Source of the DNA: Tillus elongatus
Lineage: Eukaryota > Arthropoda > Insecta > Coleoptera > Cleridae
Direction of reading: 5' to 3'
Assembly (NCBI GenBank): GCA_964006375.1
Contig: OZ023265.1
Coordinates: 156,776,547-156,840,546, forward strand
DNA: 64,000 nucleotides
A model generated the notes under the pieces. It made no database searches, was not told where the DNA came from, and was given only the letters and a program-made list of their open reading frames with translations. Of the stretch, positions 11,180-63,615 are shown one piece after another (the first letter of the stretch is position 1; the number at the start of each line of letters is the position of its first letter). Position numbers and translations under genes: made by a program.

Positions 11180-12225
11180 TGTGATTTCATTTCGTAATTT
11201 TTATTCTCTTCGAAAATAGCAAAGCTTTGGCAACCAAATTCGGTACGCATGTTTATGTTATGGAATGTATATTATATATCAAAATTTCGATCTCTAAGTT
11301 AAAAAAAGGTTATAAGCATTTCACAAAAACCTTTTAGTTGCCGCCGCAGGTCAGAGCACCGCACAAGACTAAAATATTGTGTGTGGTAAACAAAATCTAT
11401 TAAGACATTGTGAGATGTACCACAGGGTCGCCATCTCATTGTGGAATCAGGTAGTATGTTGTCACGACAGCTCCAAATAACACAAAATATTATAAAATAG
11501 AGACTGTCTACAACCAACTAACAGTTTTGTAAATTGTCAGCCCTGGCCCATTTATTCCCTAATAAAGTTACAACGTCTGTAAGGCTGGATGTAATCTTAC
11601 CATAATTAGAACCGCAGACCGGTTTCGCTCTAATTAGAGTTCCTCAGTACGATATACTGATTACAGCGAGAACACACCTATAAAGTAATACGGCTATGGT
11701 AGCCAGCCTACTAGGACATTGTGAGACAGTAGACACTGACGAGCTCTAATGAGAGCAAAACCGGTCTGCGGTTGTAACTGCGGTGAGAATACATCTAATA
11801 TTACATATATTGTCCCTATATTAGAGCAGAAATGGCTCAGGACTGCAATTTACAAAATTGTTAGTTAGTTGTAAAAAGTCTCAATTTTCTAACATTTTGT
11901 GTTATTTGGAGCTGGCGTGACAACATACTACCTGGTTCGGCACCGAAATGGCGACCCTGTCGTACATCTCACAATGTCCTAGGAAGCTGGCTACCATAGC
12001 CGTATTACTTTATAGGTGTGTTCTGGCTGTAATTAGTATACCGTACTAACGAGCTCTAATTAGAGCGAAACCGGTCTGCGGTTCTAATTATGGTGAGAAT
12101 ACACCTAGCGTTACAAAATAAATTGAATTATTTTTTTGGTGCATATATAATTTTCGTAAAAAGAGATTGCGTAGATCATATCTATGAAAAATCATTACAA
12201 ACACACACTTCATGCGTCCAGACTT
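11180..12225 (+). mobile_element. HINE-like body and 3' end, split by a hammerhead repeat
   Basis: The body (CAACCAAATTCGGTACGCAT, AATTTCGATCTCTAAGTT) lies at 11190-11320. A degenerate 3' end (ACACACTTCATGCGTCCAGAC followed by a T run) lies at 12200-12225. The 790 bp between them is the inverted hammerhead repeat described separately, inserted into this copy. Confidence 0.5.
11330..12118. repeat. Diverged inverted copies of the hammerhead-bearing 306-bp repeat
   Basis: About 790 bp related to the 35.6-36.9 kb array (shared GTTATTTGGAGC.GGCGTGACAAC, GCCCTGGCCCATTT and ribozyme segments). The left part is in minus and the right part in plus orientation. Three hammerhead cores are seen. The one at 11611-11653 (minus) has CTGAGGA, a stem II with one A.C mismatch, GAAA, ACCGGT and C. 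The one at 11730-11772 (plus) has CTGACGA but GAAA changed to AAAA. The one at 12040-12082 (plus) has CTAACGA in place of CTGACGA. The last two should be inactive. Confidence 0.75.
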
Positions 12226-33200: not shown

Positions 33201-33233
33201 GTAGCTGTCGATAAGGTCTTAAATTTAGCGACA

Positions 33234-33276
33234 GCTGCTGATGAAGACAAGTTTGTTGTTGAAATACGTATCCAGC
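33234..33276 (+). ncRNA. Type I hammerhead ribozyme, solo, intact core
   Basis: All core parts are present. Stem I is GCTG (33234-33237) with CAGC (33273-33276), 4 bp. CTGATGA is at 33238-33244. Stem II (33245-33260) pairs AG.CAA with TTGTT across one bulged A. GAAA is at 33261-33264. Stem III is the loopless palindrome ATACGTAT (33264-33271). The cleavage-site C is at 33272. Palindromic stem III without a loop is known from Penelope-like element hammerheads, which work as dimers. Stem II is the weakest part. Confidence 0.65.
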
Positions 33277-33284
33277 GCATAACT

Positions 33285-33980
33285 CTTTGTTAATATTCTG
33301 TGGCTGTTAGAATGATTCTGTTTTTTTGTTTAGGAGTATCTTGTTTTTTCTTTCTGCAGATTTTTATTATTACCATAGGTTTTCTATTGTGAAAATGTTC
33401 TAGTTTCCTCTATGGAGAATTTTATTGGTTCCATGAGTTTTCTTTTATGTTCTTTCAAATTAGATTTTTTTGCTTAAACAAACTGTGGAACTTCTTAAAA
33501 TAAAACTGTTCACAGTTAACTAGGGTTGTAATTTTTTTACTCCCACCCCAAGAAATCTATATGCAGTAGGGTATGTCGCAACCCATCACACTAGTTATGT
33601 AACATTTTTCTAGCACATTGACAAAGGGTTCATGATGATTGTAACATCATTTAAACATGCTAAAATGTTGAATATCTCTTCTTTAGTTGAAGCATATGAA
33701 AAGGTTGAAAATGCAAATTGTTATATTCCAACTTTCTTTTTATAAAAATCATCCATATCAGTTCAGGTCCGGTCTCCTGAGGTGACTGCACTTTTTCTGA
33801 CAATAACACAATTTTTCGTTTGTGCAAAACAACACGAGTAAAATCTATGAAGGTACATGTTTTAAAAGTAAACATGATAACCAATGTGAGTTTACTTTAT
33901 TTAAGGTTGTTGTCCTCGAAACCTTCATAATTTACAAAACTTCACTTATCGTTGGGTAAAGTAAATGTGTGCAAGAAACA
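33285..33980. other. Unassigned stretch
   Basis: No supported feature. Confidence 0.4.
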
Positions 33981-34132: not shown

Positions 34133-35615
34133 TCTTTATTCACTCAAATATGATACAAATGCCCACTGCATTCCTCTAAGCATGTTTCTGAATTTTTTTT
34201 CCAAAAACGAACAATACGCTAATCTACTAATTTACCTATAAATGTTATTAATATTAAAAAAATGGCAACAACGCTCGTGCCTGAAATAAAGTTATCTTAG
34301 TCATTTTAACTTTAAATGAAATTTCCTTCTCTCGTTTCGCATCCGTTCGACACATTGGGCACAGAAAATATAGGAATTAACTTAAAATTATCATTTATAA
34401 TTGAAGGAAAATACAATTTCTTCTAGGTATGTAACGAAAAAATTCACACAAAATAGAATAATTTCTAGATTCTAAAACCTACTGTGACGCTATAATGAAA
34501 CAACGTCAAATGAAACGAAAACCATTTTAGGTTAAGGGATGGAAAAATGTTTTTACAGTAAAATAAGCTTTCGTACTCCAAAAAACAACAAGGTTCTTAT
34601 AAGGCGTAATAAAATAGTGCACAATGATAGTCCACAGCAACAGTACATGTCATATTCAACTGACAAATTATTTTGATGAATGTCAGATCTACTTTCAAAG
34701 TGACATGTAAATAAATATTTTGTTTTCTGACACACCAAAAATAGAAATCACAAACACATTTCCTTGCTTCCAATATACGATCAAAACACAGCTGAGCACC
34801 ATCACAACAAAAGAGTTCAAACTTAGAAAAGAAGAAAACAACAGAAACCACTTTCATCACATACAAAACGAACACCAGGAATACACATTTATTTTCACGG
34901 ATGGATCTGTGGACCCGATAACATACAAAGCAGGAATTGGCATAACATCAGACATAAAAAGCTACAAATTCTCAGCCAGAATACCGGACTTCACAAACAT
35001 ATGCAACACTGAAATAGTAGCTATTAAAACGGTCTGCGAATACATAAATACAAATAACATAAGGAATGCTATTATTTGCTCGATTAGTGCCATCGAAAAA
35101 ATATCACAGCCAAAATAAAAATAAAAAAATGAAACACTACAGTTGGAAACCAAACGAATAATAATAGAAATGTGGGAAAAGGGAAAAGAAGTATACCTGG
35201 CATAGATACCAGGACACACCAATATAACATAAAATGAAATAGCAGACCAACTAGCTAACATTGGAAGAAACCTCAATATCCCCTTGAAAACTAAAACACG
35301 TCCAACTTAACGTAACCATTACAAAATCAAATAAAAACCGAATGAGAAGAAACATGGAAGGAGAAAAACCAAAGCAGGTGGTATGCTTCCATCCAAAATT
35401 GTCTGCCTTTGGAACCTTGGTTTAATAAATATCCATTCACGAACAGAAGACACATAACAAACATTATCCGCATGAGAACAGGACATTGCTAAACCCCAAA
35501 ACATTTATATAGGATAGGAGTTAAAGAAACACCAAACTGTGATTATGGAGAAGAATGAGATATAACACATATGCTCTTTAACTGTAAGACTAGATGCATT
35601 CTCGCAACAATTAGA

Positions 35616-35658
35616 ACCGTAGACCGGTTTCGCTCTCATTAGAGCTCTTCAGTACGGC
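35616..35658 (-). ncRNA. Hammerhead ribozyme in the inverted monomer
   Basis: The same 43-nt ribozyme as at 36039-36081, in inverse orientation and base-perfect: stem I arms 35653-35658 and 35616-35621, CTGAAGA (35646-35652), stem II (35632-35645), GAAA, ACCGGT (35623-35628) and the cleavage C at 35622. Confidence 0.85.
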
Positions 35659-36038
35659 ATACTAATTGCAGCAAAAAAGCACCAAAAATAACACGGCTAT
35701 CGTATAGCCAGTCTTAAAACACTAAGTGAGTAGCGAACGTGTCGCCACCTAGTTCGGAACCAAGTACTTGTTGTCACGCCCGCTCCAAATAATACAGAGT
35801 ATTAAAAATAGAGACGGTATACAACTAACTAACAATTAAAAAAATTGTTAGCCCTGGCCCATTTCTACCCCAATATAGGGACAAAGTATGTAAGACTAGA
35901 TGCATTATTTGGAGCGGGCGTGACAACAAGTACTTGGTTCCGAACTAGGTGGCGACACGTTCGCTACTCACTTAGTGTTTTAAGACTGGCTATACGATAG
36001 CCGTGTTATTTTTGGTGCATTTTTGCTGCAATTAGTAT

Positions 36039-36081
36039 GCCGTACTGAAGAGCTCTAATGAGAGCGAAACCGGTCTACGGT
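36039..36081 (+). ncRNA. Type I hammerhead ribozyme, monomer 1
   Basis: A self-cleaving RNA motif. Stem I is GCCGTA (36039-36044) with TACGGT (36076-36081): five Watson-Crick pairs plus one G.U. The core is CTGAAGA (36045-36051), which fits CUGANGA. Stem II is GCTCT with AGAGC around loop AATG (36052-36065). GAAA is at 36066-36069. Stem III is ACCGGT (36069-36074), a 3-bp loopless palindrome, then the cleavage-site C (36075) in a GTC triplet. Every invariant position is kept. The loopless stem III predicts action as a dimer, as in other retrozyme and PLE hammerheads. Confidence 0.9.
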
Positions 36082-36344
36082 TCTAATTGTTGCGAGAATG
36101 CATCTAGTCTTACATACTTTGTCCCTATATTGGGGTAGAAATGGGCCAGGGCTAACAATTTTTTTAATTGTTAGTTAGTTGTATACCGTCTCTATTTTTA
36201 ATACTCTGTATTATTTGGAGCGGGCGTGACAACAAGTACTTGGTTCCGAACTAGGTGGCGACACGTTCGCTACTCACTTAGTGTTTTAAGACTGGCTATA
36301 CGATAGCCGTGTTATTTTTGGTGCATTTTTGCTGCAATTAGTAT

Positions 36345-36387
36345 GCCGTACTGAAGAGCTCTAATGAGAGCGAAACCGGTCTACGGT
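36345..36387 (+). ncRNA. Hammerhead ribozyme, monomer 2
   Basis: Identical to 36039-36081, offset by 306 bp. Cleavage in transcripts of the array would release 306-nt monomers. Confidence 0.9.
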
Positions 36388-36650
36388 TCTAATTGTTGCG
36401 AGAATGCATCTAGTCTTACATACTTTGTCCCTATATTGGGGTAGAAATGGGCCAGGGCTAACAATTTTTTTAATTGTTAGTTAGTTGTATACCGTCTCTA
36501 TTTTTAATACTCTGTATTATTTGGAGCGGGCGTGACAACAAGTACTTGGTTCCGAACTAGGTGGCGACACGTTCGCTACTCACTTAGTGTTTTAAGACTG
36601 GCTATACGATAGCCGTGTTATTTTTGGTGCATTTTTGCTGCAATTAGTAT

Positions 36651-36693
36651 GCCGTACTGAAGAGCTCTAATGAGAGCGAAACCGGTCTACGGT
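36651..36693 (+). ncRNA. Hammerhead ribozyme, monomer 3
   Basis: Identical to the two previous copies, again at +306 bp. Confidence 0.9.
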
Positions 36694-37325
36694 TCTAATT
36701 GTTGCGAGAATGCATCTAGTCTTACATACTTTGTCCCTATATTGGGGTAGAAATGGGCCAGGGCTAACAATTTTTTTAATTGTTAGTTAGTTGTATACCG
36801 TCTCTATTTTTAATACTCTGTATTATTTGGAGCGGGCGTGACAACAAGTACTTGGTTCCGAACTAGGTGGCGACACGTTCGCTACTCACTTAGTGCTCTT
36901 TAACTGTAAAAATCGCCCACAACAAACTAAGGACCTATATAAAAAACTTATTGAAAATCACATAACAACACCAATTCAGACCCAACAAATTCTAACCGAA
37001 CTAAACACTAAAACAATTAAGATAATAAATGCATTTTTTAAAGAAAACAACATTAAGATTTAATAAAAACTCTACAACTATTACAATCAGCCGCACCTAC
37101 GCTAAATACGTATCACACTATATAACATAATAGAGAAAATATGGCGATGCCAATATAAAGTCCGACAATCGACAACCGTCACTAGATTAGACTACGTTTA
37201 ATGGCACAATAGACCTTTGTCTTAGGCCAAACAAAATAGACATAGAATAGAATACACATGCTCTTCTTCTTACAATCATATTTATTTTTGGCCATCACAA
37301 TTTCACTCATAGAGTTGGTTACAAT

Positions 37326-41087: not shown

Positions 41088-41138
41088 GAGACCTGACGAT
41101 CGTTTCGCTAACAAAGTTAGCGTCATCAGAGGGATGAG
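41088..41138 (-). ncRNA. PLE-type hammerhead ribozyme (best copy of its family)
   Basis: Read on the minus strand. Stem I is CCT (41130-41132) with AGG (41092-41094), 3 bp. CTGATGA is 41123-41129, with one extra C (41122) before stem II. Stem II is GCTAAC/GTTAGC with loop TTT, six perfect pairs. GAAA is 41103-41106. Stem III is the loopless palindrome ACGATCGT (41096-41103). The cleavage C is the complement of 41095. An extra base at this exact core position is known in one viroid hammerhead, which stays active but slower. PLE coding pieces lie close by (41480-41790, same strand). Confidence 0.65.
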
Positions 41139-42675: not shown

Positions 42676-42714
42676 AGATTACCCTCGCCTACCTATGTCC
42701 TGAGTGAATCATAT

Positions 42715-42950
42715 GTTGGGCAATGCTAGCTTTTCTGCTCTATTGAATCTGAAATGAGCTATGTTCTCTTTGAATCTTGTGGTTATTGATCTCCGTGTTT
42801 GCCCAATATAGATCTTCTCGCAATTGTTGCAAGATATTTGACAAATGCGCGATAATTTTCGGAAATCAATAGCATCCTTCAAATTATGAACTTTATAAAC
42901 AGCTCTCATGTCATTCTCTTTGAATATTTTTTCTAACCCGTTTGTAAGAA
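42715..42950 (-). pseudogene. Penelope-like element: GIY-YIG endonuclease fragment 2
   Basis: The minus frame encodes MRAVYKVHNLKDAIDFRKLS, then RICQISCNNCEKIYIGQTRR and SITTRFKENIAHFRFNRAEK. This matches the PLE endonuclease: I-x-Q-I (GIY region, with the Gly-Ile-Tyr worn to R-I-C), C-x2-C, then Y-I-G-Q-T-R. It differs clearly from fragment 1, so it comes from another PLE family. Confidence 0.75.
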
Positions 42951-43002
42951 AAAGATAGAAAAGAAGTACAGCGAACTTTTTTTAGTGGATTTTTTATATT
43001 TC

Positions 43003-47279: not shown

Positions 47280-47505
47280 TACTACATACAGACTTGGAGA
47301 CTATTTATCTGGCTTCACTGTTGATTTTCGTTTTTGTAAATGGAGGACGTAGCCAGAGCGTAAGCCATCTGAAGCAAGTGGCTCTTCTGAACTCTAGATG
47401 TTCTAGGATGTTCTTCAACGTTTCTGTAACTCGTTTCGCTGCTTGGCAGCATCCTCAGACAAAATAAAATTGAATTAATACGAAATCATGACAACAACCA
47501 ATAAA
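47280..47505 (-). mobile_element. Hammerhead repeat of the third family, copy 1
   Basis: About 225 bp nearly colinear with 63395-63610 (shared CTACATACAGACTTGGAGAC, GGATGTTCTTCAACGTTTC, CATCCTCAGACA). The minus strand carries a hammerhead at 47420-47466: CTGAGGA, one extra T, stem II GCTGC/GCAGC with loop CAA, GAAA, then ACGAGT where the sister copy has the palindrome ACCGGT. Stem I TTTGT with ACAGA pairs well. The damaged stem III predicts weak or no activity. Confidence 0.65.
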
Positions 47506-51894: not shown

Positions 51895-52821
51895 AGCTTA
51901 TATAAAAAATCTAAAGGAGTTAAATCCGGTGATCTAGGGGGCCACTCAATAGCATCTCTACGCCCAATCCATTGTCCTGGAAACTCTCTGTTCAAAAACT
52001 CCCTAACACGTTGTGTAACATGCGGAGGAGCTCCATCTTGTTGAAACACTAATTGATTTTCTTGATAGCGATCATCATTTTCAACAATGTCAATTAGTCG
52101 AGGTAAACGTCATCTTGTAGTAAGTCCAAATACGCCTCGCCACTCAAATTGCCATCAAGAAAAATTGGTCCGATTAAACATTCTCCAAAAATGCCAGTCC
52201 AGACAGACATTCAATTTCTGTGGAGTTTGACTGTGGACTTCGTGAAAATGTCTTGGATTATTATCTGTCCGAGAAGGACAATTATGACGATTGACTGTAG
52301 AGTTTAATAAAAACGTACACTCGTCTGAAAAACAGATATTGAACAGAAAGTTCCCGTTATCAGCTATTCGTGGAGTCATAACTTCACAAAACTCCAGCCG
52401 CCGATTAAAATCATCTTCATTCAGTTGTTGTACAAGATGAATTTTATACGGGTGAAATTTATGGTGCTTCAATATTCGCTGAATAGTTCTTCTTTTGATG
52501 TTTGAAACAGTGGCCAATTTTCTCGTGCTCAAAGTTGGGTCTGCAGCAATTTGTCCTAAAACTTCAATTTCAGTAGTCTCATTTCTAACCGAAAATTTAC
52601 GTTCAGGATCCTATTTTGTTGGCTACTAAACCACTTTGTCGAAACTTTGCAACTAACTCCAAAATGTATTTTCTCTTAACATGTCTGTTCGGATGTCGTT
52701 CATTAAACAAATTTGCGGTACGGTTGGCACAGTCATCGTTTTTGAAAAAACGAGTAATTATTTCAACTCTCTCTTCTACAGAATACACCATTGTGAAATT
52801 AATTTTCGGTAGTACTATCAA
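51895..52821 (-). pseudogene. Mariner-like transposase, copy 1
   Basis: Three frame pieces on the minus strand. The N-terminus (52603-52821) has MVYSVEERVEIITRFFKNDD, NLFNERHPNRHVKRKYI and LVAKFRQSGLV (first HTH). The middle (52155-52532) has SNIKRRTIQRILKHHKFHPY (second HTH), NEDDFNRRLEFCEVM, the first catalytic Asp in ICFSDECTF and VNRHNCPSRTDNNP. The C-part (about 51897-52110) has QLVFQQDGAPPHV (second Asp) and WIGRRDAIEWPPRSPDLTPL (third Asp, 36 residues apart by my count). A stop and a frameshift break it, but all three Asp remain. Confidence 0.8.
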
Positions 52822-53971: not shown

Positions 53972-54898
53972 GCTTATATAAAGAAGTCTAAAGGAGTTAA
54001 ATCCGGTGATCTAGGGGGCCACTCAATAGCATCTCTACGCCCAATCCATTGTCCTGGAAACTCTCTGTTCAAAAACTCCCTAACACGTTGTGTAACATGC
54101 GGAGGAGCTCCATCTTGTTGAAACACTAATTGATTTTCTTGATAGCGATCATCATTTTCAACAATGTCAATTAGTCGAGGTAAACGTCATCTTGTAGTAA
54201 GTCCAAATACGCCTCGCCACTCAAATTGCCATCAAGAAAAATTGGTCCGATTAAACATTCTCCAAAAATGCCAGTCCAGACAGACATTCAATTTCTGTGG
54301 AGTTTGACTGTGGACTTCGTGAAAATGTCTTGGATTATTATCTGTCCGAGAAGGACAATTATGACGATTGACTGTAGAGTTTAATAAAAACGTACACTCG
54401 TCTGAAAAACAGATATTGAACAGAAAGTTCCCGTTATCAGCTATTCGTGGAGTCATAACTTCACAAAACTCCAGCCGCCGATTAAAATCATCTTCATTCA
54501 GTTGTTGTACAAGATGAATTTTATACGGGTGAAATTTATGGTGCTTCAATATTCGCTGAATAGTTCTTCTTTTGATGTTTGAAACAGTGGCCAATTTTCT
54601 CGTGCTCAAAGTTGGGTCTGCAGCAATTTGTCCTAAAACTTCAATTTCAGTAGTCTCATTTCTAACCGAAAATTTACGTTCAGGATCCTATTTTGTTGGC
54701 TACTAAACCACTTTGTCGAAACTTTGCAACTAACTCCAAAATGTATTTTCTCTTAACATGTCTGTTCGGATGTCGTTCATTAAACAAATTTGCGGTACGG
54801 TTGGCACAGTCATCGTTTTTGAAAAAACGAGTAATTATTTCAACTCTCTCTTCTACAGAATACACCATTGTGAAATTAATTTTCGGTAGTACTATCAA
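53972..54898 (-). pseudogene. Mariner-like transposase, copy 2
   Basis: The same pseudogene 2,077 bp further on. N-terminal piece 54680-54898 and middle piece 54232-54609 translate identically to copy 1, and the same stop and frameshift are present, so the damage came before the duplication. Confidence 0.85.
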
Positions 54899-63394: not shown

Positions 63395-63615
63395 TCCATA
63401 CTACATACAGACTTGGAGACTACTTTTCTGGCTTCACTGCTGGGTTTCGTTTTAGTAGGTGAAGGACCTAGCCAGCGTGTAAGCTATCTTGAGCAAGTGG
63501 CCCTTCTGAATTCTAGATATTCAAGAATGTTCTTCAACGTTTCCGTAACCGGTTTCGCTGCTTGACAGCATCCTCAGACAGATAAAAATTGATTTGGTAC
63601 GAAATCACGACAACT
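63395..63615 (-). mobile_element. Hammerhead repeat of the third family, copy 2
   Basis: The sister of 47280-47505. It is followed by a TA tract and then by HINE-like body, whereas copy 1 has unrelated flank after its ribozyme, so the two share only the repeat unit. Confidence 0.7.
63541..63582 (-). ncRNA. Type I hammerhead ribozyme (CTGAGGA family), intact core
   Basis: On the minus strand: stem I CTGT (63578-63581) with ACGG (63543-63546), four pairs with one G.U. CTGAGGA is 63571-63577, which fits CUGANGA. One extra T (63570) precedes stem II GCTGT/GCAGC with loop CAA. GAAA is 63553-63556. Stem III is the loopless palindrome ACCGGT (63548-63553). The cleavage-site base is U (complement of 63547), allowed by the NUH rule. 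The extra base before stem II is the main doubt for activity. Confidence 0.65.

Follow-up and report, generated by a model that had tools for sequence, protein, structure and literature searches.

Metazoan retrozymes of the non-long-terminal-repeat (non-LTR) type are described, in the sections of PMC7229834 consulted here, as short non-coding tandem repeats of ~170–400 nt with low GC content and a type I hammerhead ribozyme, which fold into highly self-paired RNAs and lie dispersed in genomes between target-site duplications (TSDs) of more than 4 bp. The route by which these animal elements return to DNA is still open: the same sections argue for Penelope-like elements from shared hammerheads, tandem copies and co-existence, and a 2024 review (PMC11722881, in the part consulted) still treats long interspersed nuclear elements (LINEs) or Penelope-like elements as possible helpers. 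Here, we analyse an array of this kind in a 64,000-nt stretch of the beetle Tillus elongatus (assembly GCA_964006375.1, contig OZ023265.1, positions 156,776,547 to 156,840,546 of the forward strand; the window, to which all positions below refer). The array at 35572–36909, called copy 1, is a single insertion of a metazoan non-LTR retrozyme and resembles the described elements in each of these respects. In copy 1 and most of the relatives read, the anatomy indicates that the two 3' ends of the broken target were each elongated along the same RNA, or identical RNAs, starting at two fixed points and often making more than one turn, before being joined. We consider it likely that reverse transcription starts at two dedicated sites of a single circular RNA, each primed by one 3' end of a staggered break, the enzyme probably being Penelope-like.

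Copy 1 consists of 1306 bp inserted between two perfect 16-bp duplications (TGCTCTTTAACTGTAA), and the insertion spans 4.27 units of 306 bp. Unit positions are numbered 1–306 from the expected cleavage point of the hammerhead, with 36076–36381 on the plus strand as the reference unit. The insertion is built of two arms of complementary DNA (cDNA), lying within a LINE-like relic:

34711–35115, plus strand: RNase H-like frame of the LINE-like relic around copy 1, with a sub-threshold RNase H match (17.8 bits against a cut-off of 25.8); the frame resumes past the removed array
35572–35587, unstranded: left TSD, 16 bp, whose last five bases, TGTAA, match the unit too (35583–35600 repeats at 35889–35906)
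35588–35906, minus strand: A arm, the inverted cDNA arm, 1.04 units, from unit position 34 (start) to 22 (end)
35904–36893, plus strand: B arm, the direct cDNA arm, 3.24 units, with its outer start at unit position 206 and its inner end at 135
36076–36381, plus strand: one 306-nt unit, with the A start region at 32–39 and the B start region at 205–213
36894–36909, unstranded: right TSD, 16 bp, whose first two bases, TG, match the unit too

The two arms overlap by 3 nt (ATT) where they meet, and microhomology is present at all three junctions of the insertion. Much of what the original prediction had read from this array was borne out, namely an exact 306-bp tandem period (no mismatch across the 992 nt of direct units, 35904–36895), an extent of about 4.3 units, an inverted left unit (35583/35588–35906), a 16-bp target duplication on both sides, the lack of a coding frame (the unit has 40.8% GC, and the longest stop-to-stop frame across four tandem units is 39 aa) and a host reading frame that continues without the array. 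When the array was removed computationally, the flanks continued in a single frame via ...DITHMLFNCKNRPQQTKDL..., with one in-frame stop just upstream. An equally good duplication was obtained in 3% of random placements within the same piece. The claim that all units carry an identical hammerhead stands for the ribozyme, which scores equally in four units, and has to be amended for the unit as a whole, since the inverted unit is complementary to the direct ones except for one mismatch at 35678, outside the hammerhead.

To place copy 1 among its relatives, the 1.72-Gb assembly (30 contigs) was searched with the young unit, giving at least 162 matches from the best 40 of 328 first-look candidates; for this reason, the surveyed loci are the copies most like copy 1. 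The listed places were clustered by hand into 33 loci including the window, of which the 32 others were fetched, and together with both copies of the window (the older copy 2 is described below) they make 34 loci on ten contigs. A TSD of 11–18 bp is present in 22 of these 34 loci. The prediction of dispersed, retrozyme-like insertions with TSDs was therefore upheld, and a large satellite block was rejected. The family shows a unit within 150–450 bp, GC below 50%, no coding capacity, a hammerhead in each unit, dispersed copies, TSDs longer than 4 bp and a predicted self-paired fold, as metazoan retrozymes do.

Two arms in head-to-head orientation, with the RNA 3' ends outward in every case, were found in 27 of the 34 loci (25 minus-plus, one minus-minus-plus and one minus-plus-plus-plus; the other seven are single arms). 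The outer ends of the 34 loci cluster in two parts of the unit: 55 of 61 lie at A (28 ends, within positions 28–46) or B (27 ends, within 200–221), where a uniform distribution would place about 8. Twenty two-armed loci combine an A end with a B end, each with a TSD of 11–18 bp, and in these the TSD-trimmed starts have a mean of 36.2 for A (standard deviation 1.7, range 32–39) and 207.8 for B (standard deviation 2.3, range 205–213). Among all two-armed loci with a TSD, the A/B combination occurs in 20 of 21.

These end positions bear directly on LINE twin priming, in which a linear multimeric transcript would enter the target through target-primed reverse transcription, and annealing of the second DNA end at any available place would invert part of the copy. 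Twin priming yields TSDs, microhomology and an inverted outer part, and copy 1 has all three, including microhomology at three junctions, in a target that is itself a LINE-like relic. Inverted, twin-primed copies are, however, a minority of LINE-1 insertions, and their second start is unfixed; here, the second start is non-random, A and B each being fixed within a few nucleotides, two arms occur in 27 of 34 loci, above that minority, and A is paired with B in all but one of the two-armed loci with a TSD. We consider twin priming unlikely, even though the consulted part of PMC4918200 compares 15-bp TSDs found at repeats in Nematostella with those of LINEs.

Fixed outer ends, taken alone, would fit internal starts and the 3' ends of two linear RNA species alike. 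Arms have a median length of 2.3 units, and the longest reaches at least 10.45 units (L016, running beyond the fetched piece); multi-unit arms traverse A and B again, so the template was continuous there, and two RNAs per insertion would need to carry identical variants. We compared 112 whole units from 32 loci, excluding L029, copy 2 and arms below 90% identity. Differences per 306 nt average 0.8 between the arms of one locus (median 0, 164 pairs), 1.06 within an arm (177 pairs) and 4.76 between loci (496 pairs), indicating that both arms of an insertion were copied from a single template or from identical ones. That A and B are the ends of two separate RNAs is accordingly an improbable explanation.

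The inner ends behave differently from the outer ones. All 50 of them, from 25 junctions, are spread uniformly across the unit (Rayleigh p 0.995), and three of them lie no more than 5 nt from the expected cleavage point, which is therefore not where the template ends. The arms overlap by 1–6 nt at 16 junctions and by 17 nt at one, and are separated by gaps of 1–3 nt at six and 16–17 nt at two. An origin at the DNA level, through a foldback-like DNA transposon or recombining circular DNA that made inverted tandem blocks, draws on the resemblance of such blocks of tandem subunits to foldback elements. It is very improbable: the ends differ (A versus B) in 20 of the 21 two-armed loci with a TSD, leaving no matching terminal inverted repeats, on which ground a foldback transposon was rejected; inner junctions and unit numbers vary among loci, mostly with small overlaps or gaps; and TSDs of variable length (11–18 bp) and one-armed copies suit reverse transcription better. 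Least credible of all is self-priming, in which the first cDNA would loop back to serve as its own template, giving a head-to-head palindrome. This mechanism is favoured for Penelope elements in the consulted part of PMC3846280 and is in keeping with the head-to-head layout of the retrozyme loci and of two Penelope loci. The arms should then meet at near-equal unit positions, yet these differ by 21–151 nt; chance alone would bring 2.5 of the 25 junctions to within 15 nt, and none is that close, which refutes fold-back priming for this set. Nor would such priming explain why the second arm ends at the other fixed point.

The original prediction had also held that a multimer of about 4.3 units was inserted in one event. 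Insertion of a ready-made multimer with an incidental inverted unit has to be given up, given an inverted arm in 27 of 34 loci, two fixed starts and arms that look like copies of one template. Together, these properties indicate that synthesis of two cDNAs probably took place at the target itself, one from each of its ends.

The duplications and their flanks reveal how the target was cut. Allowing at most one mismatch, the TSDs of the 20 A/B loci measure 11 bp (one locus), 12 (six), 13 (seven), 14 (one), 15 (one), 16 (two), 17 (one) and 18 (one), and random placements within the same pieces (up to 40 each) gave an equally good TSD in 0–10% of trials. Locus L032, with a single arm, has an 11-bp duplication. 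TSD length is correlated with the A start (r -0.67, longer TSDs having lower A starts), which suggests that chance matches to the unit probably extend some of the TSDs. Across 42 nicks from 21 loci, the flanks carry T at +2 (23/42), T at +3 (26/42) and A at +4 (25/42), a weak NTTA motif that is shared by both nicks and hence indicates a roughly symmetric cut.

We then considered where A and B lie in the RNA. The monomer is predicted to be highly self-paired (-109.5 kcal/mol, z -6.9), and the circular minimum-energy fold calculated for copy 1's unit pairs the A region (31–43) with the B region (205–218). Between the A and B windows, 9.4 base pairs are expected in this circular fold, a value unmatched by any other start at that spacing and reached by 34 of 3000 random window pairs. 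Folded alone, 13 older units gave a consensus of -65.4, compared with -38.5 ± 3.9 for 40 column shuffles, and this consensus keeps the A/B helix and places the A point within an internal loop (9.6 pairs, reached by 21 of 2000 random pairs). At unit position 33, the young U-A pair is replaced by C-G in 10 of the 13 older units, the partner being matched by its surrounding motif. In a pair count over 57 units, the cells of the A/B helix are paired in 89.5%, versus 23–50% in slid versions; compensatory cells are few because most of the 57 units are young and alike. A and B are thus predicted to face each other in the RNA rod.

The hammerheads of copy 1 were recognised by a covariance model, as had been anticipated. 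Rfam Hammerhead_HH9 (RF02275) matches four units with equal scores of 30.4 bits each (E-values 3.2e-5 in a 1.5-kb piece and 0.0014 in the whole window); these scores came from a permissive scan only, and since they lie under the gathering score of 52, a default Rfam scan returns no match. The four are:

35600–35670, minus strand: hammerhead of the inverted arm, RF02275, 30.4 bits
36027–36097, plus strand: hammerhead, Rfam HH9, with expected cleavage between 36075 (C17) and 36076
36333–36403, plus strand: hammerhead, Rfam HH9
36639–36709, plus strand: hammerhead, Rfam HH9

The core comprises CTGAAGA, stem II (GCTCT/AGAGC) and GAAA, followed by ACCGGT and the cleavage C; a small internal loop interrupts stem I, and stem II is capped by a tetraloop. 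Going by the hammerhead consensus, we take 36075/36076 to be the cleavage point. Core, stem II, ACCGGU and C17 are intact at 135 of the 144 sites in arms of more than 90% identity. Stem III has no loop, which leaves the A-U pair around CCGG as the sole intramolecular possibility, and because its ACCGGU is self-complementary, two hammerheads should pair and cleave as a dimer. In the consulted sections of PMC7229834, newt and axolotl retrozymes likewise have a helix III of one base pair with a palindromic tetraloop (here A-CCGG-U), amphibian retrozyme hammerheads cleave efficiently only as dimers, and most invertebrate retrozymes have a more stable helix III and cleave efficiently. The sequence and this analogy suggest that the beetle ribozyme would cleave as a dimer. 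Searches with hammerhead patterns gave no match in viral contigs and none in prokaryote genome contigs.

Other hammerhead-like strings occur in the window. The string CTGATGA-C-stem-GAAACGATCGTC, whose stem III is palindromic, is found at 2149–2190 on the plus strand and at 41088–41129 on the minus strand, the former within a short inverted repeat (2028–2231) related to 319–464. A pair of related elements, 47404–47458 and 63518–63577, both on the minus strand and 86% identical over 216 bp, carries CTGAGGATGCTG.CAAGCAGCGAAAC, a minimal hammerhead-like motif, and the element at 63.5 kb has ACCGGT, as the retrozyme does. In the window scan, Rfam gave no hammerhead score to the groups at 2149 (plus), 41088, 47404 and 63518 (all minus).

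We propose that array transcripts would self-cleave at their type I hammerheads and that the 306-nt monomers would be closed to rod-like circles. A helper endonuclease would then cut both target strands with a stagger, roughly symmetrically, each nick being followed by the weak NTTA and leaving 3' overhangs of ~12–13 nt; the duplications and the flank composition are observed anatomy. The two 3' ends would prime two cDNAs on the same RNA, at ~36 (A) and ~208 (B), aided by 0–8 nt of chance pairing. Here, the fixed starts are observed, their facing is a prediction of the fold, and the near-identical units of both arms point to a shared RNA. Each cDNA would travel back round the template, often for more than one turn, and the two free ends would be joined at random positions, mostly with an overlap of a few nucleotides, in line with the anatomy seen at the junctions. 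In this scheme the template would be a circular RNA, and the helper probably a Penelope-like element. A more specific version, for and against which we see about even chances, is that the ring has a two-sided start: at each of two points, 172 nt apart and opposed in the rod, one subunit of a Penelope-type dimer would place one 3' end of the staggered break, and the two reverse transcriptases would leave in opposite directions, each free to circle repeatedly, amounting to bidirectional rolling-circle target-primed reverse transcription.

A Penelope-like helper is the most likely one because the anole Penelope enzyme extends both strands from internal starts and Penelope insertions are head-to-head. 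The anole protein (PAc) cleaves and elongates the two strands alike and initiates reverse transcription inside its RNA, at a start site no different between strands (PMC11167929), and animal Penelope insertions are typically bounded by head-to-head inverted repeats, one of which may bear a tail (PMC3846280, in the part consulted). Being non-coding, with neither reverse transcriptase nor GIY-YIG encoded, the array is itself no Penelope-like element. The window contains two traces of a candidate helper family:

33224–33326, plus strand: 3' end of the same Penelope-like family as the fragment below, 82.7% to L055, with a hammerhead-like core at 33238–33285 (CTGATGA-A-stem-GAAAT)
42712–42981, minus strand: GIY-YIG-like fragment of a Penelope-like element, candidate helper family, 13.5 bits against a cut-off of 22.6

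Related GIY-YIG frames exceed the cut-off of 22.6 in two of three tested cases, and the fragment has many relatives in the genome. The family has a fixed 3' end near the hammerhead-like core, as 30 of the other 39 matches that were scored terminate at one shared base (among the best 40 of 2886 candidates). Loci L055 and L056, picked as opposed match pairs, are two-armed, with both arms ending near the same point. Counting also the five loci picked by their 3' end, to which we return below, the seven Penelope loci lend weak support to the helper link. Near the two-armed Penelope insertion of L055 there is an inverted repeat (L055:1153–1846) whose translation, by eye, resembles the retrozyme unit.

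A second, older retrozyme copy, absent from the original prediction, was identified at 11405–12115 by a blast search of the unit against the window, with ~77–79% identity in the longer aligned pieces. It also has two arms head-to-head, with an inner junction different from that of copy 1. On the other strand, its arms cease matching the unit at 39 and ~207–210 (a 2-nt alignment ambiguity), the values for copy 1 being 39 and 208. Its features are:

11405–11726, minus strand: B arm of copy 2, with its outer end at the B point of the older subfamily
11595–11665, minus strand: decayed hammerhead, 18.6 bits, below the gathering score
11734–11768, plus strand: decayed hammerhead, 19.5 bits, below the gathering score
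11735–12115, plus strand: A arm of copy 2, matching the unit up to position 39, like copy 1
12028–12098, plus strand: decayed hammerhead, 28.1 bits, below the gathering score

With copy 2 as query, the older subfamily gave 3479 first-look candidates, of which the best 40 were scored and 10 loci were read as short pieces. Seven of these 10 are two-armed, and of the 17 outer ends of all 10, eight lie at 31–44 (A) and four at 214–219 (B); loci L043, L048 and L049 have the A/B combination. Elsewhere in the window, two identical 125-aa transposase-like frames (52155–52532 and 54232–54609), ~2 kb apart and with neighbouring frames that look identical, are probably a recent local duplication.

Several observations weigh against priming of both ends at two sites of one circular RNA by a Penelope-like enzyme. 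The 34 loci, being those closest to copy 1 plus copy 2, are a non-random sample; seven of them have one arm only, and 12 have no convincing TSD, including six of the seven one-armed loci and copy 2 (for which 16 of 300 random placements were equally good). Six of the 61 outer ends lie elsewhere, in L013 (13), L014 (255), L016, L025 (192), L029 (191) and copy 2 (187), of which L016 is cut by the end of its piece and the 187 of copy 2 corresponds to 215, on B, in the numbering of its own subfamily. Locus L010, the sole exception to A/B among two-armed loci with a TSD, is B/B with a 12-bp TSD, a minus arm of 72 nt and a plus arm of 2299 nt. In the older subfamily, five of 17 outer ends are off both points (23, 50, 93, 271 and 288), and L047 is A/A. 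As to the fold, A-B pairing is almost absent from three of eight scorable older single copies and from the weakest-pairing of 43 young units; the young copies resemble each other too closely to be treated as independent cases. A template in the form of a long linear multimer with identical units would do equally well. Regarding the helper, retrozyme TSDs are mostly 12–13 bp, compared with 8–10 bp for Penelope (PMC3846280, in the part consulted), and the comparison in PMC4918200 mentioned above points to LINEs; no A- or B-like motif was seen by eye at the Penelope 3' end, and none of the five Penelope loci picked by 3' end alone (L057–L061) has a second 3' end in the 2.9–3.0 kb read.

A fixed two-sided signature provides a positive mark of mechanism for the return of animal retrozymes to DNA. 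It predicts priming sites, allows a minimal in vitro substrate to be designed and argues against fold-back priming for this family; if the proposal is true, the insertions show that in nature a small RNA circle can be copied into a chromosome for several turns. With LINE-1 twin priming, they have in common an inverted outer segment, a TSD and microhomology, and differ in the second start, which is unfixed there and fixed here. Retrozymes in the consulted sections of PMC7229834 are tandem multimers, unlike the present family, in which most insertions are two-armed with two fixed starts, and a term search of the main text of that paper for the words inverted, head-to-head and opposite gave no hit. 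In a limited literature search, the two-armed, two-start architecture was not found in the parts consulted of PMC7229834, PMC7761336, PMC4918200 and PMC11722881; it is new relative to these retrozyme descriptions, priority not being established by such a comparison. The closest likeness is to endonuclease-bearing Penelope-like elements (PMC11167929 and the consulted part of PMC3846280), which are head-to-head with TSDs and whose optional tail on one side implies two possible starts. Cutting and extension of both strands and internal initiation are common to these elements and to the mechanism proposed for the retrozyme, and cut sites are AT-rich (ATT in the Penelope-like elements). Penelope-like elements encode a reverse transcriptase and a GIY-YIG endonuclease, whereas the retrozyme is non-coding, has starts that are 172 nt apart yet opposed in the predicted fold, and has arms that circle the unit several times.

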